From: Fibrobacter sp.
Lineage (GTDB): Bacteria > Fibrobacterota > Fibrobacteria > Fibrobacterales > Fibrobacteraceae
Direction: 5' to 3'
Assembly (NCBI RefSeq): GCF_017551775.1
Contig: NZ_JAFZKX010000052.1
Coordinates: 1 to 39,585 of the forward strand
Length of the DNA stretch: 39,585 bases
The translations under genes were made by a program, and so were the position numbers. Below the pieces are notes generated by a model. The model worked only from the letters and a program-made list of their open reading frames with translations. It made no database searches and had not been told where the DNA came from. This document shows, one piece after another, positions 8,780-39,050 of the stretch. Numbering within the stretch: the first letter of the stretch is position 1; each line of letters begins with the position of its first letter.

Positions 8780-9103
8780 ATGGCAGAAAATAAGAGTGCA
8801 ATGACCCAGCCCGAAGTCGTCTGGAACGACGCCAACATGAAGAGCCTTTACGTGAACGCCACCAACGTCGTGGCCGGCCGCGAAGAGGTGATGATGCTCC
8901 TCGGCCTCAACCAGGCTTGGAATATGGGCCAGAGCAAGGTGAACGTCGACATCGCCGAACGCGTCGTGATGACTCCGTACACGGCAAAGCGCCTCGCCAT
9001 CATGCTCGCCGCCACCCTCAAGGCGTACGAAGCCAAGTACGGCACCATCGATCTCGGTCTCGAAAAGGCCCCGAGCGCTGCAGCCGAAAAGAAGGCGAAG
9101 TAA
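8780..9103 (+). CDS. DUF3467 family protein
   Basis: 107 residues, ATG with AGGAGA seven bases upstream (8767-8772). The pattern matches the small cytosolic DUF3467 family: an N-terminal strand with LYVNATNVVAGREEVMMLLG, and then the signature RVVMTPYTAKRLAIMLAATLKAYEAKYG (quoted in two pieces: RVVMTPYTAKRLAIML at about 62-77 and LKAYEAKYG at about 81-89). The function of the family is unknown. Its codon use (GGC, AAG, CTC) suggests good expression. It has its own terminator at 9145-9172 and points away from the export operon, so it is probably an independent gene. Confidence 0.85.
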   Translation: MAENKSAMTQPEVVWNDANMKSLYVNATNVVAGREEVMMLLGLNQAWNMGQSKVNVDIAERVVMTPYTAKRLAIMLAATLKAYEAKYGTIDLGLEKAPSAAAEKKAK

Positions 9104-9172: not shown

Positions 9173-9389
9173 GTTGAAAATTACATTTTCATTACATCGA
9201 AAAACGCCGATTTGTATAAAAAAATTCACGTCTGTTGTAATTCAATGAAGGTGAATATTTTGTGCTAAAAAATATGACGGATGTGTATACAAAATAAAGT
9301 TTTTTTATAAACACCGTTTTTTATGATACAAAAAATTATTATTTTTATGGAGGCTCGGTCTGTTGTTAGACTGGCCCTTCGGAGGATAT

Positions 9390-10656: not shown

Positions 10657-10833
10657 ATGTCCAAGAACGTCAAGTCCAACAACAAGAACACCAAGAAGTC
10701 TACCCGCAACATTTACAAGATCGAGACCCTTGAGCCTCGCCTGATGATGGATGCCGAGTCGGGATTTGACGCCGACCGCCTGGATGATTATTCCGAACAG
10801 ATTGAATCTATTTCCGGTAACATCGGGGAGTAG
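10657..10833 (+). CDS. LEPR-type N-terminal leader of the giant protein, closed by an in-frame TAG
   Basis: ATG at 10657 opens 58 codons: a Lys/Asn/Ser-rich start, then NIYKIETLEPRLMMDAES at residues about 19-36, closed by TAG at 10831-10833. The LEPR-x-L/M motif after a basic segment is the signature I know from the N-termini of very large Gram-negative surface proteins (LEPR-XLL domain). The next open stretch is in exactly the same frame (10846 is codon 64), so this is the natural N-terminus of the giant gene, cut off by one stop codon. Only a weak ribosome site (AAAAAGGCA) precedes the ATG. If the TAG is real and not read through, this makes a 58-residue orphan peptide. A single change such as CAG to TAG explains the break. 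Confidence 0.7.
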   Translation: MSKNVKSNNKNTKKSTRNIYKIETLEPRLMMDAESGFDADRLDDYSEQIESISGNIGE

Positions 10834-22800: not shown

Positions 22801-25800
22801 GGGCTTGGGGGGGACGATTTTATCTTCGGTGATGGTGGTAAGATCCATATTAAAGGTAATACTATCTCTAACCCCACTCGCAGCGATATCAGCCTTGATG
22901 GCGGCGACGATTTGATCATTGGTGGTGAAGGTAAAGATACAATCTATGGTGGTTCGGGCAACGACCGGATTGACGGTGGCGTCGGCGATGATGAAATTCA
23001 TGGAGAACGCGGAAACGACCGTATATTCGGTGGCTCGGGTGAAGATTATATCTATGGCGGTTCCGGTCACGATATTATAAATGGCGATAAAGTAGAAACG
23101 ATAAAAGTCGCCAATGACTTCGATAAGGATTTCTTCAGCAAGGAACTTATTGCAAACCAGTTTAGTAAGGATAACTATACCGTTTCTGATAGTGAGTTCA
23201 AGTTCGATGTTGATTCGGACGAGAAACTAAACAAGTGGGAAAATAAACTTGAGAAGTCACATTCTGTTGCGAGTAATAATGATTCCGGTAGCGACGGCAT
23301 TGACCATATCTATGGCGATGAAGGCGATGACCTGATTTACGGCGCCGGAGAAAATGACGTCATTGAAGGTGGCATTGGTAACGATGTCATCGATGGCGGT
23401 ACTGGTGACGACAACATCCAGGGTGGTATCGATAATGATATCATCTATGGTGGTGAAGGAAACGATGTCATCGATGGCGGCGCTGGTAATGACAGCCTGT
23501 ATGGCGATGAGGGTGTTCGTGACTATGAAAGTGGTGCCCACGAGTTTAAATACCAACGGATTACGTTTGGTGAAAACTTGGGCTTGAAAAAAGCATTCTA
23601 CTATGATGCGAAGAGTAAGAGCAATGGCGGAAATGATAAAATCAAGACGGGCCCCGGCTTGGATTTCGTTGACGGCCAGGGAGGCAGTGACCAAATCTTC
23701 GTGAATCTTATGGGTGGAAGCGAAACAGGTTATGTGAATGTCTCTGATTCTGGAACGGGTGCGTCCGACAGGGATGTGCTTACGATTGAAGCCACTGAAT
23801 ATGCAGACAACCTGTTGATGCGCATGAACGAAGCAGGTACTCTTGGCTTCGTAGCGTTGTTGCCGGAAGATGGTGACGTATCTAGCACGAATGCCAATAA
23901 GAATATCGAACGCGTCAACTTTACGAATAGTATCGATGTCGTTAATTTGAACGCAAATGGCGGCAATGACAAGGTTGTCGTTGATGGTACTGCGGCTGTA
24001 ACGAATATTGATGGCGGCGCCGGAAATGATACCTTCCAGGTTGGACAGCTCTACAACTCCGATCGAAAGGCTGGTACACAGAACATCGCTTCTGAAGATG
24101 GATTCAAAACTATTCAGAATTCCGATGGAAAATACCTGAGTGAAGGTGTGTCTGAAGGTTCTAAGTTGAGCATTGATGGTGGTATTGGTGATGATACCTT
24201 TACCGCTCTGCGCAACGTCGGTTCTTTGAACATGGCTGGCAGCCGTGGCAACGATGCGTTCTCGGTATACAACAATAAGACTATGAGTGGGGATATCGTT
24301 GTCAACGGAACTCGCTCGATTGATGGTGGAACCGGAATAGATAGCGTAAATGTCTATGGCACCGAAGGTGACGATACTGTTGTTATTACGAAGGAAGGCT
24401 TGCTTTCTGAATCTGGTGGTATCAAGGTTGCCGGTGTAGAATACTCGAATTTTGCAGCTGGTGCGGGTGACGATGAATTCTATGTCGCCAGCAACAATGC
24501 GGGTGAGACGACTACGATAAACGGCGGTCATGGCAATGATACCGTGTCTGTTGGTGGTCTCGATTTGGATAGTCGTCCGCTTCGAAATGCCGATACCGAT
24601 GGCCAGACCAATACTTTGACGTTCGAAGTCCTGTCGGCGGATTCTGATGATTTGAAAGACGATGAAAAGAAGATCTGTTTTGTAAATTCTGATTTGGAAG
24701 ACAAAAAGTATCAGCAAAAATTTGTCGCGATGGATACGAGCGCAGCTCCTGCCGTGTTTGTGTCTACTTCTAAAACATATATTGCTGATAATGGGCTTGT
24801 TATTCAGGAAGGTGGAGTTGGTTCGTTCTTTGTCGGCTATTCCGGTAACCTGAAAGAAGGGTCGATTACTGTCGACTTGAACATTCCGTTGCTTTCCACG
24901 TCCATGCTTCAGGCTGGTGACAGGGGAATCCTGATTAAGAAAGATTCTGACACTACATATTCGGATCATGTTCAGATTGTCTTTGATGAAAACAATACGC
25001 AACCGGTAAAGATAAATGTCAAGGCCCTTTCGGATTCCTTGCTCGAAGAAGATGTGGTCAAGTCAATTTCGTTGAACAGCGTTTGGACTTATACGAATAA
25101 TGGTGAAGATATTGAAAAGCTACTTTCCAAGTCTGCGACGGCATTCTCGCTGAGTGTCAAGGATGATAAAAAAGTCACCAAAAATGACGAAGCGAAGAAA
25201 TTGCTTACGAGGACCGAGGAGTACACGATTGGTGGAAACACGGTTGCTCTGGGCGAATTTGGCGTCGAATTGCATGGCGCGAATAAGTCGAACATCCATG
25301 TTTATCTGGAAAATAGCGATAAGACAATTGAATATACCAGTATAGATGACAAAGGTGTTTTGACCATAAAGAATTATACAAATGACCTAAAAGATAAGGT
25401 TCTTATCGTTAATTATCGTTCCAATACAATGAAACTTGATGGATCAAAAATCCATCTTGCTTACGATGATGTTGCCAGTTTGTCTTCTGTTAAATATGGA
25501 ACCGAGACTGTCTACTGTGGCGCAGATAAAGCATCGAAGGAAAAGAAGGATATTTATTACGAGCTGAACGGAAATGTCCTGGTATTCTTCAATACGTCGA
25601 ACCAGCAACTCGCGACATTGCATGGTGAGGTTTCTGTTGGTTCAGGTACGTTTGCTCCGGCTGAAGCCAATATCACGAATACGGATTCCTTCGAAGCATG
25701 TGATTTCCTGAAGATTGAACGCTTGGGGGTGACCGGGCAGGAAAAGCAATATGTGCTTGCCGAAAGATACCTCAAGACAGAATTGAAGGATGGCATACAT

Positions 25801-28800
25801 GTCTTGGATGGAACCGACGAAGACCTTACCCAATGGAATTCTGTGACGCTCAATATTACATATGCGAAGGGCGATATTCCAGAAGGTAAGACACTGTTCG
25901 TGAAGGTGTTTGCCTCCGAGGTCTTGTCGAGCATGACGCACGGGACCTGGGACACTCAGCTTATGATTTGTGATCCTAATGGCGATGACAAGCCGTATAC
26001 TATTTTGAAGTTTACGAAGGATTCCTTGACGCAAGCCATAACTATTTATGCGAAAGGTGATGTTATAGACGAGGAGTACGGTGTCGTCACTTTCGATGGA
26101 AATAGCCCAAAGCGTATTAACCAAGTCGAAGGTATTGTTGATGCTTATGGTAAGGGAACAAGCGACATTGCCGGTGTCGATAATCCGGAACTTCTCCATT
26201 ATAATCATAAGATTGATAATGGCTCCGGCTTTGTTTGGGCTTCGGAGTTTAATGAGAAAAATACCTATGACTTAGACAGCTTGGCTGGCGTGAAGTCTGT
26301 TTCTGGTAATACAGTCGTCGTCGAAATTAAAGCAGGACTGACGCCTATTAAGGGTGGTACGGTCAAGTTTGTTTCGGAAAAGAACGAATCAGAATGGTTC
26401 CGTATTGATGGTGACCCCATTGTGGGGGAGGGTACTTATACTCTCACGTTGAACAAGTCTATTGAAGTTTCCTTGAACGGATTCAAGGCTATGTTCGCTG
26501 GGCAGAAGGATTACCTCTTTGAAAGCGAAGACGACTGTGTCGACCGTATATTCGTGAATAACCAGGATTCGAATGTCGATGCTGTCAGTGCTCTTGAAAA
26601 TGCCAATGTGGAAAGCGTTGACGATTCCGTCAAGTTTACGCATACAGAACTCAAGGAAAAGGTTGTTGCAAGCGAGTTCGAATTTGGCGAATTCAATTTG
26701 GGTACAGGTAAGGATACCGTCAATATTTCCAAGACGCTCCACAAAAATGTGGACGGAATTGACTTCCAGACGTTTACCGTCGTTAATACTGGCGACGATA
26801 AAGTAAATCGAACAACAGATGATAAAATTACCGTTACCGACTACGATGACGAGAATGACGGTCAGCTGGTTATCAATGCCCAGGGCGGAAACGATACAAT
26901 CACCGCAAAGGGAAGCAAGATAACTAGGGACGGCATGATTGTTCTTGGCGGCGCCGGAAAAGACACCATCGATGTCGACAAGGGTATTATTGCCTTTGGT
27001 GACAAGGGTAACATCCAGTACAAGAATGGCGATACGGTCGTTACGGAGCTCGGTTATTATGGGGAGGATGTCGGCAACCATAAGGCTGGCGATATCATTC
27101 TGACGACTATTCCTAAGGATAGGGACGCTAATTATATCCAAAAGCAGACCGATGGCATTGTCCGTGGGGCTACATCGATTGCGTCCGTAATGCCTAGCGA
27201 AGGTGATGTTGATGATATTACCGCCAGCGGACAGAACAGCGTTGTTATCGGCGGTTTTGGTGGCGACAATATCTCTGTAACCGGAGAAAAGAACGTTGTT
27301 CTTGGCGACAATGGTGTCGTGAACTTCCATAACGAAGGTACGGCGACGTCTTGGCGCGAAAACAACATCAAGATTAGCCTCGAAAAGGTTCAGACGACAA
27401 ATAATTCTATTGGTGAGAAAGATACCATTGATATTGTCGGCAGCCATAACGTTGTCATGGGCGGAAATGGTGGTGACATAATCACCATCGGCGAAGCCGG
27501 TAAGGAAAATGGGACCGATAACGTTGTCCTAGGCGATGGCGGTATCGCAGAATTCACGCCGGGCGTTGCTACGACCGATGATTTCATGGTCAATGCCGCA
27601 GTCAAGTCTGTGAAAACGGATGATGATCTCATTGGAACGCGCGATGAAATCACGATCTATGGCGGCTTGAATACTGTCATGGGTGGTGCCGGCCGCGACC
27701 AGATTATCATTGGTGAAGAAAACAAGAGCTACGGAAAACAGAACGTCGTTCTTGGCGATGGCGGCTCCTATGAAGTCGATAAAGCGAAAGGCGAGGTGAC
27801 GGTTAAAACCAATGACCTCTCTGTGTCCAGTGAAAAGGAGCCTGATTTTGCCGACACCATCGAAATCCATGGCGGTCAGAATACGGTCATGGGTGGCCTT
27901 GCTGGCGATGGAATCGACATTTTCGGTGCCGACAACATCGTCCTCGGCGATGGTGGCGAATCCATTCGCGAATGGAACAGCGAGCAGAAGGTCTACGACT
28001 CCATCAAGTCCGTCAAGACGACTAATGACGATAATGGCGGTATTGACACCATCAACATCCATGGAGGCGAGAATGCCGTTATGGGTGGCGCCAAGGGTGA
28101 TAAGATTACCATTGGCGACGAAGTCGAGGAGGGTAAGCCTCAAAATGGCAATGAGAACGTTGTCCTTGGCGATGGCGGCTCCTATGTTGTCAACAAGGAA
28201 GAAAACCTTGTTACGATCCAGACTTCTCGTGATATCGATGAAAATCAACAAGTCGTTATTCATGGCGGTGAGGATACCATCAAGGTTTATGGCGGACAGA
28301 ATACTGTTATGGGCGGTGCCGAAGGCGATGATATCGATATTTATGGTGCCGACAACATCGTCCTCGGTGACGGTGGCGTAGCCGTCCGTGAAAGGAATGA
28401 TGAGCACAAGATCTTCGAGGCCATCAAGTCCGTCAAGACGACTGATGACGATAATGGCGGTATTGATACCATCGATATTTATGGTGGTAGGAACGCCGTG
28501 ATGGGTGGCTTTGCTGGTGATATCATTACTATCGGCGAAGCGAAAGAGAACGAAGAGGAAAATGTTTCCTACGACCACAACATCGTATTGGGTGATGGCG
28601 GCGAATATAATAACGAAGCTTCTGATTCTGCCTATATCAAGACCCAGAGCGATGACATTGGTGGCGAAGACCACATAAAGGTCTTTGGCGGCCACAATGT
28701 CGCTATGGGTGGCTTCGCTGGCGATGAAATCGAAATTCACGGTGGCGAAAACGTTGTTCTCGGTGATGGTGGCGTTGCCAATTACAACAAGAATCCTAAT

Positions 28801-31800
28801 GCGGCAACGGTGAATGAATTCATCAACTCCGGACTTCGTGATGTTGCAACCACGAGCGATGGTATCGGTGGCCATGACGATATCGATATCTTTGGCGACA
28901 AGAACGTCGTGATGGGCGGTGCCGATGGCGACAACATCGATATTGCTGGCAAGGATAACGTTGTCGTTGGCGACGGCGGCCGCTATGACATCTATGAAGA
29001 CTACAGGACGGTCAAAACCAAGTCTGAACAGGACGGTGGCCACGATGTTATCCATACCGACGACGGCAAGAATATTGTGATGGGTGGTATGGATGCCGAC
29101 GAAATCACCACGGGTGACGGAAACGACATCATCCTTGGCGACGGTGGCTTTGCTAAGGTCGATAATGACTTTAATGCGATATTTGTCACCAACGAAGGTA
29201 TCAACGTCGGAGATGACCTCGGAACGGCCGGTGCCGATACTATTATTGCAGGCAATGGTGACAACGTTGTCTTTGGCGGTCTCGATGACGACGATATCAC
29301 GACGGGCAATGGCCAGGATGTGGTGTTCGGCGATAACGCCTATGCGACCTTCCGCGGCAACGCCAACGAAGCGTTCGAACAGGTGGGTGACCGTCAGAAC
29401 GTTCCGGACGTCTACGAAGAGGCAACCCTCAGCTTCAACTTCCAGGGCGCTTCTCAGAGCGGTCTTGGCACGGGCGACTTTGTCGGTGCGTACAACCAGG
29501 AACTCGGCGATGATTTCCGCAGCCACAACTGGAACAACATCTCGGGCTCGCTCGCGGGTACCTACGGCAACGACGACCACGAAGTCGTGAACATGGACAA
29601 TCTTGATGCTACGGGCGATAAGTCTGCCGACGAAACCCGCACGCGTGTTAGCGGTGTGAGTGTGTCTTACGGCGGCTATGAGAACCACCGTAACACGAGC
29701 ACGGACAACCGCATCGATCTGCAGGCCTATAATCTCGGCCTCTGGAACACGCATCAGGATAGGAATGCAAAGCTCATGAATTCGGGCCTGATGACGACGG
29801 CTCCGAACGCCCAGTGCGGCAACAAGTTCGAAGTCACGATGGACGGCCTCGCGCAGTACTTCTCCAGCTACAAGGTCGTTGTCTATCTCGACATCCCGGA
29901 TTCTCATTCTGCGGCAGATAACAGCGTGCGCAAGGTGAGCCTGTTCATGGGCGATGCCGAAAATGCGCTCGCGACCTACTATGTGAACGACATGGCGGGC
30001 CATAACTTTAATGGTTCCTTCGAACGGGCGACTTCGACGAGTGCCGATAACGCAACGCCTGCGAACTACGTGGTATTCGAAGTGCCGGAGGGTGCAATCG
30101 CCGACAACTTCCGTGTTGTCATCGAGGAAGCTGATGAACATGCCCAGAATGGCAAGAACCTCCCGGGCATTGCCGGTATCCAGGTCAGGGGCACGCTCCA
30201 CAAGCAGGACGTCGCCGCTTCTACGGATATCGACTTTGGCGGAAACGACACCATCCATACCGACCTCGGTGACGATATCGTGGTGGGTGGTACTGGCAGC
30301 GACGATATCACGACCTATGGCGATGAACGCTACAGCCTCTACGACAATGACGTCGTGTTCGGCGACAATGCGAAGATTCTGCTTACCGATCGTGATAACG
30401 ATGAGACTACGGCGTCGACCATTTCGACTGCGGAATCTGTTGCCGTGACGAATCTCGATGCAATTTACAACGACCTCATCAATACCGGTGACGGCAACGA
30501 CGTCGTTGTGGGTGGTATCGGTGCGGATACTATCCATGCCGAGGCAACCGCGGCCGCCGAAGCGATGCTGGACGACATCAACGTACTCTCGATCAACTTT
30601 ACCCGCGAGCATTCCAATTCCTCGGATGCGATTGCTTCGGGCGAGGCGGCTGGCGTCGTGGTGGATACCAACTGGCACAACTTCTACCGCAACGACCGTG
30701 GTGTCATTGTGTCGGAATCCGTGCGCGGTCAGGAATCTACTCCCCAGTACAACAGCGACATGAACCTCCTCTCGAACAATCCGACGAAGAACAACCCGTA
30801 TGCTGTCGAGGAGGGGGTCGAAGTTCAGCTTTACGGCAAGAACCACGGGCAGCGCCAGACCATTGCCAGCTTCACCATTGAAAACTACGATGAACTGGAT
30901 GGCGATACCTCGAACTCGAAGTTGTTCAATACCTACCTCGGGGCCCAACAGAGCGAAGAAATTGTCCTGAAGCTCAAGAACATGAATACCTTCGTGGGCA
31001 ATTCGAACAATTCGATTTCTTCTACCTACGACCTCTATATCTACCTTGGTGGCGACAACAACGATACCGACACGTACAACTACCTGTACCAGGTGAAGTT
31101 TACGGGTGGCGACGGTGTGTCTCAGTACCGTTACCTGAACGATTGGACGGGTCACACGTTCGACGGCGACTACAAGGAAGCGACCTGCTCGTCGCAGAAC
31201 GAAGCCGAACGCTTGCTGCATAGGGCGCTGAATACCGATGCTCATGAATCGGCAGCTCCTCGCCTGGAACTGGTGGGCAACTACGTGGTGTTCCGTGGCG
31301 TATCGGGCGATATCGCCGATATTCGCATCAAGAACATCTACACCAGCTCCGGTCAGCATCCGAAGAACCTCCCGGTTATTGCTGCGGTGCAGGTTGTCTC
31401 GGGCGATGGCCGCTATGCCGGTGAAACCGCTATCGGTGGCGATCACGACAAGGATCTCGTCTATGGTGATGACGCGAAGCTCGTGTTCGACCTGGATATG
31501 CCTTACGACGCCGATGTTCCGGATCTCTCGAAGTACCAGAACCGCGTGGTCGATGCTAAGTCTGTCGCCATCGCAGAAGATGCGGTGACTACGATTTCGA
31601 CCGATGATACCATCTTCACGGGCAAGGACCGCGACGTTGTCGTGGGTGGCGAAGGTGCCGACACGATTAAGATGGGCGCGGGTGATGATATCGCTCTCGG
31701 CGGAAGCGCGAACCTCATGCTCGAACACAACAACCCGCTGGGTGTGTTCACGCCCAATACCGAACTCACGCTCGAACAGCATACCATCGACACTTCGCTG

Positions 31801-32397
31801 TACAAGGATCACCTCGATAATGACACTGCTCAAGTTTCGCAGTTCCAGAGCAGGCTCGACCAGAACCGCATCCAGGGTATCGATACCTCCGTGTCGAACG
31901 AAAACGACCGCAAGGATTCCATCGATGTCGGCGAGGGCAGGAACCTCGTTTCGCAGGCCTCCTACAGCACCGCGGAACTTGTCGTGCCGAAGCCTGTTGT
32001 TGATGACGAAGAAGGTGGAGAAGGCCAAAATCCGTCCATGACGCCGCCTCCCTCCGACGAACTGGGCGAAGGAACATTCGTGCTTGACCATGAGGGAGTC
32101 CCGACCTTGGTCGAGATTCCTGCAGGCGGGACTGTTGAACTCGTGATTACGGATTGGGATGAGGGCGACCAGTATTACCATCCGAATGTGTTCTTGCAGT
32201 TGAGCTGCGGTGGCAACACGAACCATCGGCTGATTGTTACCTGGGATGGAAAACAGGGTGATTCTCCGGATTACCTGCTGAACTTTATGGAGTTCGACAT
32301 TCCGAACGTGACAACGGTTCCGGGTGAACACAAGATTGTCGTGAGGATTACATCGAAGGATGAATTGTCGCTCATGGCAACGGTTATTCATCGGTAA
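10846..32397 (+). CDS. Giant modular RTX-like surface/secreted protein (7183 residues in this frame)
   Basis: The reading frame is open for 7183 codons from a GTG at 10846; with the LEPR leader it would be 7246 codons. Order of parts, in residues from 10846: tandem beta-rich modules of about 220-290 residues (about 70-1830); a mixed beta region with a Glu/Ser/Gly-rich linker (about 2635-2660); amphipathic strand-rich segments (about 3160-3860); an EF-hand-like loop (3732-3743); RTX nonapeptides GGxGNDxI (3869-4570); two beta-sandwich-like segments (about 4640-5090); a variant RTX-like array with VMGG and VLGDGG (about 5340-6165); two related 270-residue modules (from 6195 and 6581); and a beta-rich end. 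No membrane anchor or Sec signal is visible after the GTG. It is probably exported and calcium-stabilised, acting as an adhesin or surface fibre. The next two genes follow at 8- and 9-base gaps, so they form one operon. The GTG start has GGGGAG 15 bases upstream and may not be the true start. Confidence 0.85.
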   Translation: MDSIDGFDAWPQRNAGSFTTLFGESVDNLKTTVADKVNTVLTQSLDQARTAIEQANANLAEGADPISKLSLSELVDTYVKNFLESEQGEEYKGLTFSAEGSKLTVGIDLSETKSLENLGVDLGSWGKVSVDGAANLSATAQASVSVELDKDGSGSLLDSADDVEISAPQVDKLEVSVDIPGASAKFMNLSVSEVESADEPAPDLSLSYTPDEGVTKNVDLEFKVGEIANLPFYVADEGVLKVSTNDGELDVQVPEFKLNKDFSLGTVLKSVAAKKLPILNSIKIPVGEGVQSEELSVAEVASELEDFWSFVPSAIYGSVENKAMNLVQLKSSVDSFVQTKAAEWGNVFGSYAFVGEGDSLPLSEGENSLVLRITPTAGSFDKLNLGKFSLEKVAVNTKIDVKFTFNMDAEGKITFSNVALQDLNVKMQKSGVESISLEGISAVPNSGVFSLELSIVNRNNRLDVDKFDAQLTYDKLDLKANDTLLASLQQGSISYANEKWTLPAEITNFTDLLSGDSFSMKSLLSAIGSVPYLANYKFAIAKKNPDKNEPKNYVLSVVDFAGKVDDAWKGISLALSGGVNEAVQGAENIAEGVAIDAARLKALFESSVTDKNLSSLFDSVTFKIGEADAVDIFAEVIGEQAELPSIALNVGSNEFTLGFAKKNIAMDGFSINSFNVNAKADISAALKIKLNIDQSGKVTFGEFDISGFEVTVSLEDFADTSLTVSYADKKWQVSEFDFESLIEGISLSAILKPVIENFTNNKSIPNLDLKVKETQTTVLGILDSVSNTWENVSKALKASVSLLGSGDPKVAKLDADALRNKFASLVEKDGDDEFKNIIDCIKIVPSGSMQEYNIWGRELQSAVLPTLTGEEYTFVFSLHEASLEKLKLPLFDLNSRLGVDSEIAIKVTVNAVDGKADYTLGLEKLGFGVDIGGAVQGLPFAISGDSSVKVSYDVTNGWKVDYPKFELGGNFALKTVISSLLENVDVEWMKLTSEAGVENVKDVLNSIVSEAEKAHNTIAKALCSDAAELSTGATSSIDVTIETLKRALSEVLDSESIFKSVEIVKQGANVGDSDTLYTVFGDAVATTTEKVLNFSIDSNSQCAKLTFRFTPKKSFEKVSIAGVALSNVNMECPFDVTLTLRNNNGSIELESVDFDKMTLDVSQPLSGPISLPGDLTAELVSGLFKFKASIGTSGFAISECELSYSSLELKYNNVMLLKQEKSADEGTDPFEIGYSDSSNEWNFPSEFTDLRAILDDVDPFAAIIGVAESASIPYLGDSFKIGSNSYKVSEILQKVSGFRNNVLLALRNQIARSEDTVSLNLSEAKRIFDGFWKSSANAGFKDFFSKINLNFDAISYNLLADTGIPSDPIAISGGKFAVEFVSEIKDLEIDLGAYSSKFNVEVSAAIEIKVEADGIALSFGAFEFRVPTINKDNSVVNTFLQFDEGDCLRITYDGQKFTCNVKPKENIDLTNLLSIEYLFTALNNIDIPFLLTPTFSVLGHSFTIPQFGTELNTYFQTVQYGVKNAFEGGKLDFAKIKNAFAGYVNGLVPLDKIQILNKEFSSDFNSNDLVNLVGTASAPSGSIALAKGDHTLLFAISPKKLQLLGEGGFNLGILDVDSLSADCTVYLKLDVKVGDDGKLSFENVELERVELTFTTALDSMNLGLFNVGIVGGTVTFGVSIGKDGGVNANELKLSYKSLTLKAGVGNSSLEIAKITQSGKFSYGFESHEWTLPSEIKQYMSLSGDSLINQVHVVLNSLQTALRNMVEKKTKLDFLDGSIDKVVDIVDKVEAVVYGDGDAACDYGLMKCVEGQYQKNFGTIQQFVEVFNKSWKMVFFGGEGDDVVSLVTPTEENAKNVRLKFELKFGVGKAFGLDLAHVLKDELENVSTHGYVSISGDASIAFTLNIDFSGEKLDGNAKLSDIGLFQVKKKDGVLTAVREVDGDEKVISENEGYVTYVIPTEKTFDETLYISIKTNNEVQRDRTKLGTIKINANEKIERKNADWHTQELEPGVKNLIWNINCTSSSNQIYITSNQEFDIEKGEAPDDVKKTSSGDAFAELNLSGTNLQTMCEVTNKSGEDDTWDIYFFTPEQIEKAKTEGVKLDPSKAKCVKIKEETLKELFDASSPLKDQLNGYLSIQNIDNLEKGRSIMNTYGLYVVDVTSDDKIIFGCDPRRIQGYHPGSDSYYLLYSNIDKMGEQITYMRISGELTPSMNTSGRQGALVSIDDETLGNEVVYVNFEKSYTETDARSELEKLKKAYGFDDQADPTEIIKNLNGKVEFGLKELGEDRWAISLKSTDDKTSVEMTNNILELNFTDKSKNSATIYVNTEKCMSVFNLANEIAKTINSSKNAVLSKVTEVKVVDGNIVFTVSEQDFTIGTESSNMRDFKLDGAGGLRLVDFQLLLETSALESQKLSSLLENINQNIGPYTIAIVDDHLEISGSQEFTLTSFGSSKALEWLGFSSGQKAQKKSGTSQSSTDSFRIVGSALKNLDWSKKISLENVNVGANLTLSMGTNLHEIDKLSKSGNSVTLELKSAEGNDVRADVSYAVGGYISVGKDYYKIENVDAEAGTLTVSTVSIDGNTLKDADKKETWKEAKYVASASASYKFVGADLFADGQVTLTLNFELEKENKAAEGEEKSGETEQSGDTEQSGESGETAEGSDGIKVLGYYFKPTLNVDDGKFKALAYADLFGYGVELASATLEVVKPNGFASFEDDTNTELKQDNYRLASNVELGDGVKSILDSFKNFSIEKLYVVLENLIDRIDDVTEKVKGKKIPVINKTVGDLVSVANDLRSIISTLRAEKITSLQQFGDLLNTYLDKFNLTSRTDGKKLFNIRFDKDYQAVFFDFDVAKAIGVRHRFSFGEANSGVQGNIDLDVSGDFWFALSAKVVFGEEFDLVLTEPIQFGAEIAISGDKLNFDLGVTGGGSGMLSNLISVGENKDQQSFIYGKVAFLGSVSGNDSDSFSIKDASGVKIDYALPIVLFGRLPITVCEMSLGDVLLGRFNNNAVELVNCTSFDNAQDEVEKIMGAIKEDWKDGELTEANKTYDSFDFGLRLGNEGDTSSFDGELIADFSNVYERILELADFANMDWFSQIKLAVSGLNNLFEMLESNINGGMANSIKSVPVVGSALSTGVDFLSVLKNKVLDPFSKFVYESTGLTAEMVAKKMNDLFELDSFLTPDDSYYFGWEGKNSGWNQIGGQGTWFRSTKESAEWYFNLGGVYSFGTSIGFDLGFPGLALAADGGLKLSLSWALEFGFGISKQNGFYFIFNDGNEINVKATASLEGTDISASLAGLGLTLSTTGTDKDNKAHEAVIELSFGVDLNNPSDSSTETYNSRLGVSQLPNADGMNEWIAKQKTDDNPDDKIKKFTKKYGLVEVSKAFAVPKFDFDASVDINVGIDVGVGKDAGRDTPKFPNISGDFEFSWAYEFVKGVKQSNVKSLAFKNLEFDMGSFIGGVLGPIVSKIQSVVEPLEPLIDFLMTPFPVLDDLGIKITPLDLAKKFSKGKFDDGMIYAIKDLISISKMISTSNGKGIKISLGDFVLVKTVGDNTDAQSFLKGKSALSTIDVDAFTSNQPDIKGEANKELEDQGFKFKGDSSWKFIWSDPSQIFKMLLGEDVPLVEYTMPKLCFDFDWDTFVRIWGPLGARLGVTFSASIQLGFGYDTLGIRQWISSGRKDYGRLLNGFYVMDKDANGVDVNELSFYGGLTAAAELNAGVKAGVGGGVGINVGFNLFDPNKDGKVRLSEMKQIIGELGLFGIFDVNGEITAKLYAYVDLWLCKKEWNITGDITLFSFNYEHKLAPVMASKNDNGNIVAHIGPNAGDRVSTDNVNTSLEDGDEAYVADLTEKGEVKWAGGNKSVKTDKGKWYQIDGGAGNDYIKLSGKAGLNLEIYGGEGDDVIDLSGLDLNGYTVIIVGGAGNDTIIGANGGMNIIYGDDGYVPPEEERKKSPMTWDAEGSVVASASGNDTIIGGDRADIIFGGAGNDKINGLGGDDFIFGDGGKIHIKGNTISNPTRSDISLDGGDDLIIGGEGKDTIYGGSGNDRIDGGVGDDEIHGERGNDRIFGGSGEDYIYGGSGHDIINGDKVETIKVANDFDKDFFSKELIANQFSKDNYTVSDSEFKFDVDSDEKLNKWENKLEKSHSVASNNDSGSDGIDHIYGDEGDDLIYGAGENDVIEGGIGNDVIDGGTGDDNIQGGIDNDIIYGGEGNDVIDGGAGNDSLYGDEGVRDYESGAHEFKYQRITFGENLGLKKAFYYDAKSKSNGGNDKIKTGPGLDFVDGQGGSDQIFVNLMGGSETGYVNVSDSGTGASDRDVLTIEATEYADNLLMRMNEAGTLGFVALLPEDGDVSSTNANKNIERVNFTNSIDVVNLNANGGNDKVVVDGTAAVTNIDGGAGNDTFQVGQLYNSDRKAGTQNIASEDGFKTIQNSDGKYLSEGVSEGSKLSIDGGIGDDTFTALRNVGSLNMAGSRGNDAFSVYNNKTMSGDIVVNGTRSIDGGTGIDSVNVYGTEGDDTVVITKEGLLSESGGIKVAGVEYSNFAAGAGDDEFYVASNNAGETTTINGGHGNDTVSVGGLDLDSRPLRNADTDGQTNTLTFEVLSADSDDLKDDEKKICFVNSDLEDKKYQQKFVAMDTSAAPAVFVSTSKTYIADNGLVIQEGGVGSFFVGYSGNLKEGSITVDLNIPLLSTSMLQAGDRGILIKKDSDTTYSDHVQIVFDENNTQPVKINVKALSDSLLEEDVVKSISLNSVWTYTNNGEDIEKLLSKSATAFSLSVKDDKKVTKNDEAKKLLTRTEEYTIGGNTVALGEFGVELHGANKSNIHVYLENSDKTIEYTSIDDKGVLTIKNYTNDLKDKVLIVNYRSNTMKLDGSKIHLAYDDVASLSSVKYGTETVYCGADKASKEKKDIYYELNGNVLVFFNTSNQQLATLHGEVSVGSGTFAPAEANITNTDSFEACDFLKIERLGVTGQEKQYVLAERYLKTELKDGIHVLDGTDEDLTQWNSVTLNITYAKGDIPEGKTLFVKVFASEVLSSMTHGTWDTQLMICDPNGDDKPYTILKFTKDSLTQAITIYAKGDVIDEEYGVVTFDGNSPKRINQVEGIVDAYGKGTSDIAGVDNPELLHYNHKIDNGSGFVWASEFNEKNTYDLDSLAGVKSVSGNTVVVEIKAGLTPIKGGTVKFVSEKNESEWFRIDGDPIVGEGTYTLTLNKSIEVSLNGFKAMFAGQKDYLFESEDDCVDRIFVNNQDSNVDAVSALENANVESVDDSVKFTHTELKEKVVASEFEFGEFNLGTGKDTVNISKTLHKNVDGIDFQTFTVVNTGDDKVNRTTDDKITVTDYDDENDGQLVINAQGGNDTITAKGSKITRDGMIVLGGAGKDTIDVDKGIIAFGDKGNIQYKNGDTVVTELGYYGEDVGNHKAGDIILTTIPKDRDANYIQKQTDGIVRGATSIASVMPSEGDVDDITASGQNSVVIGGFGGDNISVTGEKNVVLGDNGVVNFHNEGTATSWRENNIKISLEKVQTTNNSIGEKDTIDIVGSHNVVMGGNGGDIITIGEAGKENGTDNVVLGDGGIAEFTPGVATTDDFMVNAAVKSVKTDDDLIGTRDEITIYGGLNTVMGGAGRDQIIIGEENKSYGKQNVVLGDGGSYEVDKAKGEVTVKTNDLSVSSEKEPDFADTIEIHGGQNTVMGGLAGDGIDIFGADNIVLGDGGESIREWNSEQKVYDSIKSVKTTNDDNGGIDTINIHGGENAVMGGAKGDKITIGDEVEEGKPQNGNENVVLGDGGSYVVNKEENLVTIQTSRDIDENQQVVIHGGEDTIKVYGGQNTVMGGAEGDDIDIYGADNIVLGDGGVAVRERNDEHKIFEAIKSVKTTDDDNGGIDTIDIYGGRNAVMGGFAGDIITIGEAKENEEENVSYDHNIVLGDGGEYNNEASDSAYIKTQSDDIGGEDHIKVFGGHNVAMGGFAGDEIEIHGGENVVLGDGGVANYNKNPNAATVNEFINSGLRDVATTSDGIGGHDDIDIFGDKNVVMGGADGDNIDIAGKDNVVVGDGGRYDIYEDYRTVKTKSEQDGGHDVIHTDDGKNIVMGGMDADEITTGDGNDIILGDGGFAKVDNDFNAIFVTNEGINVGDDLGTAGADTIIAGNGDNVVFGGLDDDDITTGNGQDVVFGDNAYATFRGNANEAFEQVGDRQNVPDVYEEATLSFNFQGASQSGLGTGDFVGAYNQELGDDFRSHNWNNISGSLAGTYGNDDHEVVNMDNLDATGDKSADETRTRVSGVSVSYGGYENHRNTSTDNRIDLQAYNLGLWNTHQDRNAKLMNSGLMTTAPNAQCGNKFEVTMDGLAQYFSSYKVVVYLDIPDSHSAADNSVRKVSLFMGDAENALATYYVNDMAGHNFNGSFERATSTSADNATPANYVVFEVPEGAIADNFRVVIEEADEHAQNGKNLPGIAGIQVRGTLHKQDVAASTDIDFGGNDTIHTDLGDDIVVGGTGSDDITTYGDERYSLYDNDVVFGDNAKILLTDRDNDETTASTISTAESVAVTNLDAIYNDLINTGDGNDVVVGGIGADTIHAEATAAAEAMLDDINVLSINFTREHSNSSDAIASGEAAGVVVDTNWHNFYRNDRGVIVSESVRGQESTPQYNSDMNLLSNNPTKNNPYAVEEGVEVQLYGKNHGQRQTIASFTIENYDELDGDTSNSKLFNTYLGAQQSEEIVLKLKNMNTFVGNSNNSISSTYDLYIYLGGDNNDTDTYNYLYQVKFTGGDGVSQYRYLNDWTGHTFDGDYKEATCSSQNEAERLLHRALNTDAHESAAPRLELVGNYVVFRGVSGDIADIRIKNIYTSSGQHPKNLPVIAAVQVVSGDGRYAGETAIGGDHDKDLVYGDDAKLVFDLDMPYDADVPDLSKYQNRVVDAKSVAIAEDAVTTISTDDTIFTGKDRDVVVGGEGADTIKMGAGDDIALGGSANLMLEHNNPLGVFTPNTELTLEQHTIDTSLYKDHLDNDTAQVSQFQSRLDQNRIQGIDTSVSNENDRKDSIDVGEGRNLVSQASYSTAELVVPKPVVDDEEGGEGQNPSMTPPPSDELGEGTFVLDHEGVPTLVEIPAGGTVELVITDWDEGDQYYHPNVFLQLSCGGNTNHRLIVTWDGKQGDSPDYLLNFMEFDIPNVTTVPGEHKIVVRITSKDELSLMATVIHR
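11050..16350 (+). repeat. Tandem 220-290 residue modules in the N-terminal part of the giant protein
   Basis: About six or seven diverged protein-level copies. Each has a start like IPYL..FxI (near nt 11670, 12433, 13134, 13795, 14659 and 15304), a helix with VxxxWxxVxxAL, a variable segment, then a strand block with LGxFxLxxVxVxxxIxIK, then GKxxFxxxxLxxxxV, and an end like YxxxKWxLPxEI. Spacing is 650-870 bases. Copies are too diverged to align at DNA level, so this is an old duplication series. Confidence 0.7.
18735..18830 (+). repeat. Glu/Ser/Gly/Thr tandem linker in the giant protein
   Basis: Short DNA repeats built on TCTGGAGAAACAGAACAG encode SGETEQSGDTEQSGESGET. The stretch is acidic, low-complexity and probably unfolded, separating two beta-rich parts. 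Confidence 0.75.
22039..22074 (+). other. EF-hand-like calcium loop in the giant protein
   Basis: Residues 3732-3743 read DPNKDGKVRLSE, with Asp, Asn and Asp at positions 1, 3 and 5, Gly at 6, a hydrophobic residue at 8 and Glu at 12, the canonical EF-hand loop pattern. A second, imperfect one (DKDANGVDVNEL) lies about 45 residues earlier. It directly precedes the RTX block, suggesting a calcium-dependent fold in this part. Confidence 0.6.
22447..24560 (+). repeat. RTX calcium-binding nonapeptide repeats
   Basis: Residues about 3869-4222 carry dense repeats of the GGxGxDxUx type, for example GGAGNDTIIG, GGSGNDRIDGGVGDDEIHG and GGIGNDVIDGGTGDDNIQG. Scattered single copies (IDGGAGNDTFQV, INGGHGNDTVSV) continue to about residue 4572. 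Such repeats form calcium-filled beta-rolls and are typical of proteins exported unfolded to a calcium-rich outside. Confidence 0.9.
26870..29335 (+). repeat. Variant RTX-like array with VMGG...VLGDGG units
   Basis: About eleven units end in NVVLGDGG or close variants, near nt 27297, 27520, 27741, 27933, 28153, 28353, 28579, 28750, 28958, 29125 and 29317, so the period is about 57-75 residues. A unit reads roughly GGxNxVMGGxxGDxIxI, a short turn, NxVLGDGG, then a variable insert containing TxxDxxGxxDxI. The inserts differ while the core stays, unlike compact RTX blocks. Confidence 0.8.
29428..31420 (+). repeat. Two related modules of about 270 residues in the C-terminal part
   Basis: Copy A begins LSFNFQG (residue 6195) and copy B LSINFTRE (residue 6581). 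Both contain NWNN/NWHN early on, YVNDMAGHNFNGSF or YLNDWTGHTFDGDY, NYVVFEV or NYVVFRGV, IADNFRV or IADIRI, and KNLPGIAGIQV or KNLPVIAAVQV. Each follows a VFGDNA-type RTX-like unit. They look like carbohydrate-binding or Ig-type beta-sandwiches inserted between RTX-like units; no function can be assigned. Confidence 0.75.
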
Positions 32398-32405
32398 TCT
32401 GTTCT

Positions 32406-34583
32406 ATGGTCCTCGATCAGCAGCGCAAGATATTCCACGAATCCTGGTATCGCCTTGCGGGGAGTAAAATCTCCCTCAGGGCGAGCGTCAGGGTGCATCG
32501 CCAGACATACCGCGGCGTGCTGTGGTACGTGCTCTACGAGCCTTTCTCCAACCAGTATTACCGCTTGCCTCGGGGTGCCTATGATTTTGTATCGCGGCTT
32601 TCCCCTGACAAGACAGTCGGTGAAGTCTGGAGCGCGATGCTCAAGAGCAGCGAAGGTGAAATGCCCGGGCAGGGCGAAGTCATCGAGATGCTTGCGCAGC
32701 TGTACCAGGCGAACATGCTCATGTACACGGGCGTGGACGATGGCGCGAAGCTGTTCGAGCGCAACCGCAAACAGACGCAGAAAAAGGTGAAGGCGTCGTT
32801 ACTGAATATCTTCTTCTTGAAGATTCCTCTGTACGACCCCGATGCCTTGCTCAACAAGCTGCGCTGGCTGATTCGGTTCTTGCTGAGCAAGCCCTTCGCC
32901 CTCATTTGGCTCGCCACGGTCCTTGTCGCCGCGAAATACGGTGTTGAGAACTTCGACCAGCTGAAGGATAACGCGCAGGGGTTCCTCGCGCCGTCGAATA
33001 TCGGCTGGGTGTACGTGTGTACCGTGTTTGTCAAGCTGTTGCACGAATTCGGCCATGCGAGCGTCGTCAAGCGCTATGGGGGCGAGGTGCATACGCTGGG
33101 CGTGATGTTCATGCTGCTTGTGCCGTTGCCTTATGTGGATGCGACGGCGAGCTGGTCGTTCCGTAAAAAGTCGAGGCGTGCCCTGGTGGGTGCTGCGGGT
33201 ATGCTTACGGAATTCTTCATCGCGGCGGTGGCACTTATCGTGTGGGCGAACCTGGGCGGAGGACTCGCGAAGAACCTCGCGTACAACGTAGTCATAATGG
33301 CTTCGGTCTCGACTGTGCTGTTCAATATCAACCCGCTCATGCGCTTTGACGGCTACTATATTTTGACCGACCTGTTGGACATGCCCAACCTGCAGCAGAA
33401 TTCGGTACGCCACCTCAAGTACTTGCTGGAACGTTACGTGTTCTTCAAGCGCGATGCCGAGGTAGTTGCCGAAACGTGGCTCGAGCGCGTGGTTTATTCG
33501 GTGTACGGTGTTTCCTCGTCGATATACAGGATTTTCCTGTTTACGGGTTTCATCGTCGCTATTTCGCAGCATTACCTTATTTTGTCGTTTATCATGGGGG
33601 CGCTTCTGTGCCTTACCATGGTGCTGATGCCGTTAGGCAAGTTCCTCAAGTACATTTTTGCGAGCCCCGGGCTTGCGCTGGTGCGTAACCGCGCCATTTT
33701 CGTGACGACGCTCGTGCTCGGCAGCGCTATTGCGGCTCTTTTCTACATTCCGGTTCCCGATTCGTTCAAGGCCCCGGGCGTGCTGGAGGCTTCGCGGTAC
33801 GAGAATACCACGGTGGGCGAGGGCGGAGTCGTGCTCGGCGTGTACCGCGGTTCTAGCGATAACGTCAAGAAGGGCGATACGCTCATGGTGCTGGAAAACC
33901 GCGAGCTGGATTTCGCCATCGAGGATAAGCAGTCGCAGGTCCGGGAATCCCAGCAGATGTACTACCAGGCGCTCGACGAAGCTCCCGAAAACATGTTGCC
34001 GATAAAGAAGCGCATCGGCGTGCTCAAGCAGGAACTGGCCGAGTTGCAGCAGCGTCGCGACGAGTTGACGCTTGTCTCGCCGATGGATGGCATCTGGGAC
34101 GTGAAAAACGCGGGCGAATACGTGGGCCGCTTTTTGCAGAGGGGCGATTCGGTGGGCATGATTCTCGATACCGGCTCGTTCGATTTCCTTGCCGTCGTGA
34201 GCCAGGAGGAGGTTTCGCGGCTTTTTGTGGGCGACATGCGACAGGTCTCTGTGCGCTTGAACGGCGATGCGTTCACCGAAATCCCGGTGGAGAAGGTTTC
34301 CGCGATTCCCGCGGCGCGTGACCGCCTGCCTTCCGCCGCGCTCGGCTGGCTGGGTGGCGGCGAAATCGAGACGCGTTCCAGCGGCGAGGACTTTGGCGAG
34401 CGCACGGCGGAACCGGTCTACCTGGTGCGCGCCACCCTGAAAAACGAGAACGGAGTGCTTTCCAAGATAAAGATGTCGCACGGAAGATCCGGCAAAATCC
34501 GCTTCCACCTGAAGGATACGCCGCTCGCCATGCAGGGAATCCGCAAGGCGCGCCAGGCCCTGCAGAAATATTACAAGATGTAG
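32406..34583 (+). CDS. PqqD-like / M50 membrane metalloprotease / HlyD fusion protein
   Basis: 725 residues, starting 8 bases after the giant gene stop. Residues about 45-115 resemble a PqqD-type peptide-recognition domain (YRLPRGAYDFVSRL, then a short helical domain). The M50 site-2 protease part follows: membrane helices around 155-180, 200-220, 250-275 and 285-310, zinc motif HEFGH at 213-217, and the distal NPLMRFDGYY with Asp315 as the third zinc ligand. More helices lie at about 370-420 and 435-455. From about 460 on there is a HlyD-type adaptor: GEGGVVLGVYRGSSDNVKKGD, a coiled hairpin, LVSPMDGIWDV and a beta-barrel. Such fusions are annotated as putative peptide zinc metalloproteases. 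Here it probably binds or cuts the giant substrate at the inner membrane and passes it to the adaptors and TolC; both proposals are inference. Confidence 0.85.
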   Translation: MVLDQQRKIFHESWYRLAGSKISLRASVRVHRQTYRGVLWYVLYEPFSNQYYRLPRGAYDFVSRLSPDKTVGEVWSAMLKSSEGEMPGQGEVIEMLAQLYQANMLMYTGVDDGAKLFERNRKQTQKKVKASLLNIFFLKIPLYDPDALLNKLRWLIRFLLSKPFALIWLATVLVAAKYGVENFDQLKDNAQGFLAPSNIGWVYVCTVFVKLLHEFGHASVVKRYGGEVHTLGVMFMLLVPLPYVDATASWSFRKKSRRALVGAAGMLTEFFIAAVALIVWANLGGGLAKNLAYNVVIMASVSTVLFNINPLMRFDGYYILTDLLDMPNLQQNSVRHLKYLLERYVFFKRDAEVVAETWLERVVYSVYGVSSSIYRIFLFTGFIVAISQHYLILSFIMGALLCLTMVLMPLGKFLKYIFASPGLALVRNRAIFVTTLVLGSAIAALFYIPVPDSFKAPGVLEASRYENTTVGEGGVVLGVYRGSSDNVKKGDTLMVLENRELDFAIEDKQSQVRESQQMYYQALDEAPENMLPIKKRIGVLKQELAELQQRRDELTLVSPMDGIWDVKNAGEYVGRFLQRGDSVGMILDTGSFDFLAVVSQEEVSRLFVGDMRQVSVRLNGDAFTEIPVEKVSAIPAARDRLPSAALGWLGGGEIETRSSGEDFGERTAEPVYLVRATLKNENGVLSKIKMSHGRSGKIRFHLKDTPLAMQGIRKARQALQKYYKM

Positions 34584-34592
34584 GTCTTCGAA

Positions 34593-36533
34593 ATGAACCT
34601 GACGGATAACTATCGCCTTACAGCCTGCAAGAAGGTCGGGAAAATCCCGACCGGGCTCGACGCGTTCGTTTTCCGGATGGTCGGAAGGTTCAAGGGGCGC
34701 AGGGGAGTGCTGCGCCGTCTCTTGAAGGATGCCGCCCTTATCGACAAGCGCGGGCGCATGTATTCCGTGATGAACAACTCGATTCTCAAGAGCCAGTTGA
34801 CGCAAATCCGTACCGAGATGAAGCGCCGCCCTGACAGGAACACGCTGCTCCAGGCATTTGCGCTTGCGCAGGAATCGGTTTCGAGAACGCTCGGCTACAG
34901 GCCCTATATCGAGCAGGTGGCGGGAGCCTTGGCGCTTTACCGCGGGTATATCGCGGAAATGTCCACCGGCGAAGGCAAGACGGTGACCGCGGCGATGTGC
35001 GGCGTGGTGCGTGGCTGGAGCAAGCGCCCGTGCCATGTGATTACGGCGAACGACTATCTCGCCGCCCGCGATGCCGAAATCATGAAGCCGCTTTACGATT
35101 TTTGCGGGGTTACGGTAGGAGCGGTGACCGGCGCCATGAAACCGCCCGAGCGACGCGCGGGCTATGGCGCCGACGTCACCTATTCTACTGCGAAGGAGGT
35201 CCTTGCCGATTTTTTGCGCGACCGCATCGCGATGGGCGGGTTCCAGAGCTTTGGCAAGCGCATCGTGAACGGCGCGGTGATGAACCTCGAAAAGATGATG
35301 TCGAACCTGGTGCAGCGCGGCCTTTGTACCGCGATTATCGACGAGGCCGACAATGTGCTGATTGACGAGGCGGTCACGCCGCTGATAATTTCGCGCGAAA
35401 AGAAGAACGAGGAATTCAACGAGAGCTGCAAGATTGCGTACGATATCTCGCTCCTCCTCAAGCGCAACAAGGATTACGCAGTCGATATCAAGAACCGCAC
35501 GATTCGCTTTCTGGTGGATATCGAAGAGCGTCTCGAGGAAATCGAGAACGCGAGTTCGTTTACGCGTGCCGCGTTCCTGAAGGACCTTGTGCGCCAGGCG
35601 CTGGTGGCGCGAGAACTGTTCGAGTGCGGGCGCCAGTATGTCATCGAGGAGGGCAAGGTCGTCATTGTCGATGAATCGACGGGCCGCAAGATGCCCATGC
35701 GTTCGTGGAACGGCGGGCTCCACCAGATGATAGAAATCAAGGAAGGCCTCGAGATGAGCGGCCTCAAGGAGACGGAGGCCCGCATGAGCTTCCAGCGGTT
35801 CTTCAGGCTGTACAAAAACTTCTCGGGGATGACCGGTACCGGCAAGGAGGCTTCCGCCGAATTCTGGACGATTTACGGAGCCCCGGTAGTCTGCATTCCG
35901 AACCACAGGAAGAGCAAGCGCAAGGTGTCGCACCTCAAGACGTATTCGACGAAGGATTCCAAGCGCAGCGCCATAGTCAAGGAAGTCGTGCGCATGCATT
36001 CCAAGGGCCGTCCCATCTTGATTGGCACGAAGGATATCGACGAAAGCGAGTACCTCGCGTCGGCGATTGAATCGAAGGGCCTGCACTGCCGCATCATCAA
36101 CGCGGTGCGCTGCGAAGAGGAGGCCGCCATCATCGCCGAGGCCGGAAAGTTCGGCGCCATTACGGTTGCGACCAACATGGCCGGGCGCGGTACGGACATC
36201 AAGATCAAGGACGATGTGCGCCGCATCGGCGGGCTGCACGTGATTGCCACGGAATGCAATCCCTCTTCGCGTATCGACCGCCAGCTATTCGGGCGTTCGG
36301 CGCGTCAGGGCGACCCGGGAAGCGTGAGCCATTACGCCTCGTTCGAAGATGATGTGTTGCGCCGCAATTTGCCCGCGACCATGAACCGCTTTTTTAGGCA
36401 TCTGGGCCCGCTGTCGGCGCTTTCCGTGGTTTGGGCGCAGCATCGCGCGGGCAGCAAGGCCTACCAGAGCCGCCTCTCGGTCCAGAGAACGGACACCTGG
36501 CTCGAAGATTCCCTTGGGTTCTCTGCGGAATAG
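34593..36533 (+). CDS. Short SecA-like preprotein translocase ATPase
   Basis: 646 residues, 9 bases after the M50-HlyD gene. The SecA motor is clear: Walker A in AEMSTGEGKT (residues 121-130), ITANDYLAARDAE, Walker B DEAD at 250-253 in IIDEADNVLIDEA, then TPLIIS leading into the preprotein cross-linking region, MSFQRFFRLYKNFSGMTGTG, VATNMAGRGTDI, and the final helicase motif QLFGRSARQGDPGSV near 570. Housekeeping SecA is about 850-900 residues. This one ends about 75 residues after that motif, so it lacks the helical scaffold and wing domains and the C-terminal zinc linker. It cannot simply replace SecA on SecYEG. Its place after the giant gene and the M50-HlyD fusion suggests a dedicated motor for the giant protein. 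There is no sign of decay. Confidence 0.88.
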   Translation: MNLTDNYRLTACKKVGKIPTGLDAFVFRMVGRFKGRRGVLRRLLKDAALIDKRGRMYSVMNNSILKSQLTQIRTEMKRRPDRNTLLQAFALAQESVSRTLGYRPYIEQVAGALALYRGYIAEMSTGEGKTVTAAMCGVVRGWSKRPCHVITANDYLAARDAEIMKPLYDFCGVTVGAVTGAMKPPERRAGYGADVTYSTAKEVLADFLRDRIAMGGFQSFGKRIVNGAVMNLEKMMSNLVQRGLCTAIIDEADNVLIDEAVTPLIISREKKNEEFNESCKIAYDISLLLKRNKDYAVDIKNRTIRFLVDIEERLEEIENASSFTRAAFLKDLVRQALVARELFECGRQYVIEEGKVVIVDESTGRKMPMRSWNGGLHQMIEIKEGLEMSGLKETEARMSFQRFFRLYKNFSGMTGTGKEASAEFWTIYGAPVVCIPNHRKSKRKVSHLKTYSTKDSKRSAIVKEVVRMHSKGRPILIGTKDIDESEYLASAIESKGLHCRIINAVRCEEEAAIIAEAGKFGAITVATNMAGRGTDIKIKDDVRRIGGLHVIATECNPSSRIDRQLFGRSARQGDPGSVSHYASFEDDVLRRNLPATMNRFFRHLGPLSALSVVWAQHRAGSKAYQSRLSVQRTDTWLEDSLGFSAE

Positions 36534-38895: not shown

Positions 38896-39050
38896 GGGAT
38901 GAATCGCCCCGAAACTGCGGAGGTGGGATGAATGTATCCGTTTTTTCGATGATGACAAATTAGAATTTACCATAAATTACTCGGGAGTTTTGGGAGCGGG
39001 ATATAAATTTTTTTCCAGGTATGGATAACAACCCAAAACAAGGAGTAAAA

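Follow-up and report, generated by a model that had tools for sequence, protein, structure and literature searches.

SecA is usually presented as the motor that serves SecY. A 39,585-nucleotide stretch of Fibrobacter sp. DNA (contig NZ_JAFZKX010000052.1, here called the window) encodes a SecA-type protein, mini-SecA, that lacks the wing and the two-helix finger, the parts that contact and enter SecY. On which conduit, and on which substrate, does such a motor act? The initial annotation had suggested either another channel, perhaps the membrane part of the protein encoded next to it, or an unfoldase that delivers a giant protein.

A naturally shortened second SecA

Mini-SecA (34593..36533, plus strand, 646 aa) was assigned as a secondary SecA_DEAD protein from Pfam and NCBIfam matches, its orthologues, an AlphaFold model and its clade. 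Pfam recognises SecA_DEAD (PF07517, 3.1e-84), the preprotein cross-linking domain (PF01043, 7e-21; residues 285-381, 35445..35735) and the SecA P-loop domain (2e-48), and gives no match to SecA_SW. Walker A, GEGKT (residues 126-130, 34968..34982), was placed by alignment of 60 copies among the matches listed, in which G126, E127, G128 and K129 are invariant and T130 is present in at least 90%. It is followed by Walker B with the DEAD box (residues 250-253, 35340..35351), GMTGT at residue 412, AGRGTDI at residue 530 and motif VI, QLFGRSARQGDPG (residues 564-576, 36282..36320); all these features lie on the plus strand, and the catalytic motifs are invariant or nearly so in the same 60 copies. 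With every motif found and the Pfam domains present, the ATPase motifs and the preprotein cross-linking region are intact, as had been claimed. The protein then ends 70 residues beyond motif VI, close to the approximately 75 given earlier.

To locate this end point we used the structure of Clostridioides difficile SecA2, in which the scaffold helix spans residues 578-625, the wing 626-705 and the two-helix finger 706-781, and in which R613, in the scaffold, has been proposed as a contact to SecY (PMC7503281). Residue 646 of mini-SecA aligns with residue 608 of SecA2, inside the scaffold helix. The start of this helix is therefore kept, while the wing, the finger and the equivalent of R613 are lost. 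The remnant forms the last helix of the model (residues 605-641, 36405..36515, plus strand; AlphaFold DSSP and alignment to 6itc_A and 6sxh). Hence the earlier description of a protein with neither scaffold nor wing holds for the wing and is slightly off for the scaffold, of which the start remains, and the finger is missing as stated, the protein ending before it. The last residues carry a conserved tail, L641-x-F643-S (36513..36524, plus strand); among the matches listed, L641 and F643 occur in 57 of 60 copies, Q616 in 60/60 and R627 in 58/60.

The single-chain AlphaFold model (pLDDT 88.3, pTM 0.86) superimposes on substrate-engaged Bacillus subtilis SecA (6itc_A) with 2.5 A over 586 residues and on other SecY-bound SecAs with 2.4-3.0 A; the deviation from free SecAs is mostly larger. 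This closer fit suggests that the domains of mini-SecA are placed as in SecY-bound SecA, a placement predicted for one chain that is no proof of the state or of a partner.

Is the short form an artefact? Nothing was found to favour a frameshift, an assembly error or a pseudogene at this locus, although the neighbouring giant gene holds an in-frame stop; a break near 36.53 kb had been named as what would overturn the initial reading. We consider this explanation refuted. At least ten other Fibrobacter genomes encode full-length orthologues with the same end, and among the matches listed 59 complete copies, drawn from many phyla, measure 635-754 aa (median 662) and share a common end point. No SecA_SW remnant follows near 36.5 kb, the sole SecA_SW match of the genome being the full SecA locus on contig C101. 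Values of dN/dS are about 0.04 between close relatives and 0.13 between the window and the nearest copy compared; judged by these ratios, mini-SecA is under purifying selection. Loss of wing and finger, common to the 59 complete copies, is thus a trait of the mini-SecA family. In one Fibrobacter genome (G032), the mini-SecA at locus L015 has an internal TAG.

A further trait is an insert in NBD1, about 20 residues long in the window (about residues 216-236, 35238..35300, plus strand; alignment). It lies between the LRD and DEAD motifs, mostly comprises 15-20 residues, and was found in 38/38 mini-SecAs and 0/18 other SecAs. As far as the alignments tell, the insert and the L641/F643 ending are derived features common to mini-SecAs. 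We conclude that mini-SecA is a genuine, naturally shortened second SecA, composed of NBD1 with its insert, the cross-linking domain, NBD2 and the start of the scaffold helix.

It is also not the only SecA of its genome, which would have spoken against the special role first proposed: a separate full SecA is encoded by a 983-aa frame on contig C101. In a quick tree computed with the trait columns omitted, 38 mini-SecAs split from 17 other SecAs with SH-aLRT 100, standing apart from housekeeping SecA and from the one authentic SecA2 sampled, in agreement with a clade of their own. Mini-SecA likewise does not reach the cut-offs of the canonical SecA equivalogs (505/800 bits for TIGR00963, 508/814 bits for NF009538) or of the SecA2 models (467/1085, 430/930, 395/725 and 371/1100 bits). 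A single SecY was counted in the source genome (G000), and 16 further Fibrobacter genomes have one each; genome G008 yielded none. With no second SecY in the genome and the SecA2 cut-offs missed, a SecA2-SecY2 system was rejected. A different accessory SecA occurs in two Fibrobacterota genomes (L101, 764-aa frame; L099, 950-aa frame); both frames close with a hydrophobic stretch resembling a membrane helix, and the proteins form their own clade with support 100.

M50-HlyD and the surrounding module

Directly upstream of mini-SecA lies the gene of an M50-HlyD fusion (32406..34583, plus strand, 725 aa; Pfam and NCBIfam), the proposed inner-membrane partner of mini-SecA. It starts 8 bases past the giant gene described below, and mini-SecA starts 9 bases past it. 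The M50 Pfam score is 24.0, just under 27.2. Both zinc motifs of M50 / site-2 proteases (HExxH and NPxxxxDG) are preserved, the first as HEFGH in the window (residues 213-217, 33042..33056, plus strand) and the second within NxNPLxxxD, H213, E214, H217, N309, P310 and D315 being invariant in 56 sequences among the matches listed. A periplasmic-adaptor half follows (residues 448-714, 33747..34547, plus strand). Structure search with the AlphaFold model (pLDDT 86.9) retrieved MacA, MexA and AcrA adaptors with Z of 13-16, the matches being confined to this adaptor part. In several relatives the N-terminal part is annotated as PqqD-like, by annotation only.

Scanning genome contigs with an M50-HlyD protein alignment yielded at least 80 loci, distributed over Fibrobacterota, Elusimicrobia, Spirochaetes, Desulfobacterota, Verrucomicrobia and relatives, Planctomycetes, Nitrospira, Omnitrophota and Proteobacteria. 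Among the matches listed, a SecA-like gene directly follows M50-HlyD in 60 of the 64 loci with room, that is, with at least 2.2 kb of sequence after M50-HlyD (56 of them clean, the other 4 having long or odd frames); M50-HlyD stands without adjacent SecA in 4/64, an Omnitrophota locus included. The distance matrices of the two proteins correlate with r = 0.90 over 49 loci among the matches listed, a value to which shared descent contributes. The partnership with M50-HlyD anticipated from the window is therefore borne out by its near constancy and by this correlation. Modules without adjacent mini-SecA were noted at L117, L121, L143 and L167 and on the plasmids L072 and L073 (Thalassospira, Azospirillum).

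On the minus strand, the window encodes a GAF-HlyD adaptor (3046..4515), a TolC-type outer membrane factor (OEP; 4478..6172) and a 264-aa HlyD/RND-type adaptor (6174..6968), recognised by Pfam, for the latter two also by NCBIfam, and by comparison with relatives; the Pfam matches are HlyD_D23, HlyD_3 and OEP. M50-HlyD, GAF-HlyD, HlyD and OEP genes are thus all present in the window and in relatives. A carboxypeptidase-regulatory-domain protein (7015..8595, minus strand) accompanies the module in several Fibrobacterota. The plus-strand gene at 8780..9103 is the genome's only copy of DUF3467, which is a module member in Alphaproteobacteria as well. Its product is possibly a small cytosolic helper; identification as a known chaperone was dropped, since no solved relative was found by sequence. 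Between the DUF3467 and giant genes (9363-10541) lies a protein with a Fib_succ_major domain and a serine-rich linker.

In other Fibrobacterota families, GAF-HlyD, M50-HlyD, mini-SecA and TolC genes stand side by side. The usual order on alphaproteobacterial plasmids is giant, DUF3467 (in most), adaptor, M50-HlyD and mini-SecA, in some followed by an adaptor and TolC; the module's plasmid loci that we examined carry no other gene annotated as Sec. No ABC transporter was found among the window ORFs scanned with Pfam and NCBIfam. Nor does the genome contain an HlyB- or LssB-type exporter over cut-off, the best scores being 183/726 bits for HlyB and 237/693 bits for LssB, and on the basis of these two models a conventional type I ABC exporter was rejected. 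Anti-phage defence was discarded as well, mini-SecA and M50-HlyD having no PADLOC match.

The giant LEPR protein as probable cargo

Which protein would such a module handle? Upstream of M50-HlyD the plus strand encodes a giant protein in two pieces. The leader, MSKNVK...ETLEPRLMMDA... (10657..10830), matches the LEPR-8K model NF012209 with 20.7 bits (cut-off 17); it is basic and has no hydrophobic core. The body comprises 7183 aa with RTX nonapeptide repeats (10846..32397; PF00353, 4.7e-39). Between them stands an in-frame TAG (10831..10833) at a position where the frame is open in relatives. This TAG may be a mutation or an assembly error, and the window's cargo gene may be broken.

The connection of giants with the module extends to other genomes. 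Counting as LEPR giants those frames of at least 1500 aa with a LEPR leader, we found them in 22 Fibrobacterota genomes, the source genome included. M50-HlyD is present in 21 of these, compared with strong matches in 33/168 Fibrobacterota genomes overall (hypergeometric 2.5e-17, uncorrected for ancestry among related genomes that are nearly all Fibrobacter). Of 18 pairs that share a contig, 16 have no more than about 350 bases between the end of the giant frame and M50-HlyD. Adjacency and co-occurrence both agree with the earlier guess as to the client, and the giant LEPR protein encoded just upstream is likely the client of the mini-SecA module. The one genome of the 22 without an M50-HlyD match, which is 88% complete, carries its giant as a 4824-aa frame (G019:C57:6985).

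LEPR leaders examined in relatives are also devoid of a Sec-like hydrophobic core, which makes a classical Sec signal unlikely. A publication that mentions LEPR-XLL (PMC10868602) contains no mention of SecA or M50.

Proposed export through M50-HlyD and its alternatives

An intact motor, loss of the parts that bind or enter SecY, a constant M50-HlyD partner and a locus in which no ABC exporter was found together point to M50-HlyD as the conduit. We consider it reasonably probable, with some reserve, that mini-SecA serves as cytosolic ATPase to a type-I-like apparatus which threads the LEPR giant through M50-HlyD, HlyD and TolC without SecY. What we observe is which parts are encoded, how conserved and how closely linked they are, the common cut point and the separate clade; from linkage and homology we infer how interaction, transport and cleavage would proceed. 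The apparatus would consist of M50-HlyD in the inner membrane, with its protease-type membrane domain and MacA/AcrA-like adaptor, together with GAF-HlyD, HlyD and a TolC-type outer channel. The basic LEPR leader would be recognised at the N-terminal domain of M50-HlyD. Mini-SecA, as its conserved motor and clamp suggest, would clamp the unfolded giant and push it by cycles of ATP hydrolysis. The chain would cross the membrane at M50-HlyD and exit via adaptor and TolC, and the intact M50 active site may clip the leader. On the other side, we know of no M50 protease that forms a polypeptide pore, a few modules have no SecA gene beside M50-HlyD, and the giant gene of the window carries an early stop. 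The complete picture, in which a widespread system with a SecA-type motor working off SecY exports giants of 4,000 to more than 12,000 residues via M50-HlyD and TolC and M50 removes the LEPR leader that served as address tag, is more tentative, and we would put it somewhat short of probable.

Several other readings share part of this evidence. Mini-SecA might feed the giant to ordinary SecYEG, leaving to M50-HlyD, the adaptors and TolC just its processing and its passage across periplasm and outer membrane. The genome has a single SecY and no other known channel, the modelled clamp and motor resemble those of SecY-bound SecA, and a shortened wing is known from mycobacterial SecA2 (PMC7503281). 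Against this, the wing and finger are absent altogether and the R613 equivalent would fall beyond the end of mini-SecA, the leaders lack a hydrophobic core, and the constant partner is M50-HlyD, with no other Sec gene annotated in the plasmid loci examined; we regard the SecYEG route as unlikely. Quite unlikely, too, is a purely cytosolic role, in which mini-SecA acts as an unfoldase or holdase and the force comes from calcium-dependent folding outside or from an unrecognised ABC exporter. Such a role would suit a motor that lacks the parts for entering a channel, RTX repeats that calcium could fold once they are outside, and the modules without adjacent SecA. It is hard to reconcile with a membrane protein that nearly always accompanies mini-SecA and has diverged in parallel with it, with a conserved C-terminal tail that by its sequence resembles a docking site, and with the genome's lack of an HlyB/LssB-type ABC exporter over cut-off.

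Finally, the locus might export something else, or the LEPR giants might be linked to it in another way, such as regulation of surface proteins via GAF, so that the clients of mini-SecA would be unknown. The GAF adaptor does suggest sensing (PMC4452313). Yet the giant gene ends beside M50-HlyD in nearly all same-contig pairs and comes first in the module on the alphaproteobacterial plasmids examined, which renders this explanation very improbable. Export through M50-HlyD thus remains the reading we prefer.

Both the motor family itself and the basic idea go back to 2015. Kamneva, Poudel and Ward described "secondary SecA_DEAD" proteins encoded with M50, HlyD, GAF-HlyD and TolC-type genes and proposed that the SecA_DEAD protein takes the place of the ABC ATPase, with M50 as the pore (PMC4452313). 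Those proteins likewise lack all or most of SecA_SW, are additional to canonical SecA and form their own clade (PMC4452313). Every feature of theirs that we tested is found in mini-SecA: SecA_DEAD, no SecA_SW, a canonical SecA in the same genome, the clade and the four-gene locus. Fibrobacter, giant proteins and cargo all go unmentioned in the main text of that paper (PMC4452313), and no later functional study of these proteins was found in the literature searched, which lay mostly outside subscription journals. To the 2015 account we add Fibrobacterota, Elusimicrobia, Spirochaetes, Desulfobacterota and others, the LEPR client, the insert and tail, the M50 motifs and DUF3467. What appears to be new is the giant cargo, the exact position of the cut and the occurrence in Fibrobacter, along with the other phyla, the invariance of the M50 zinc motifs and the insert and tail as derived features. 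The cargo link makes the 2015 idea directly testable.

With type I secretion (HlyB-HlyD-TolC) the locus has HlyD-type adaptors, a TolC-type channel and RTX cargo in common. It differs in having no ABC transporter, a SecA-type ATPase and an M50 membrane protein standing in its place, and in the N-terminal LEPR leader. If our reading is true, a type-I-like system can be powered by SecA in place of an ABC transporter, and the SecA motor is reusable on a conduit other than SecY. It would also offer a likely export route for some of the largest bacterial proteins, so far known mainly by their N-terminal LEPR label.

SecA2 of the accessory Sec system is, like mini-SecA, a second SecA for special substrates, but the C. 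difficile protein keeps scaffold, wing and finger (PMC7503281), whereas mini-SecA has neither wing nor finger. E. coli SecA-N68 (PDB 5k9t) is a laboratory C-terminal truncation and motor fragment that likewise lacks the C-terminal regions; VIA-align matches the mini-SecA model to 517 of its residues at Z 39.6 and rmsd 10.3. Unlike SecA-N68, mini-SecA is natural and conserved and has the extra insert and the conserved tail, and with it nature itself offers a way to ask which regions of SecA the pushing of a chain requires.

Residues 23-408 of M50-HlyD match the intramembrane metalloprotease of daptide biosynthesis (NF041824, 1.2e-45, below cut-off), a family that has no adaptor domain (model length 379) and substrates other than those proposed here. 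At the far end of the window (39021-39584), a glycine-rich protein with GGFGGDGG repeats and a lipoprotein-like start is cut by the window end.
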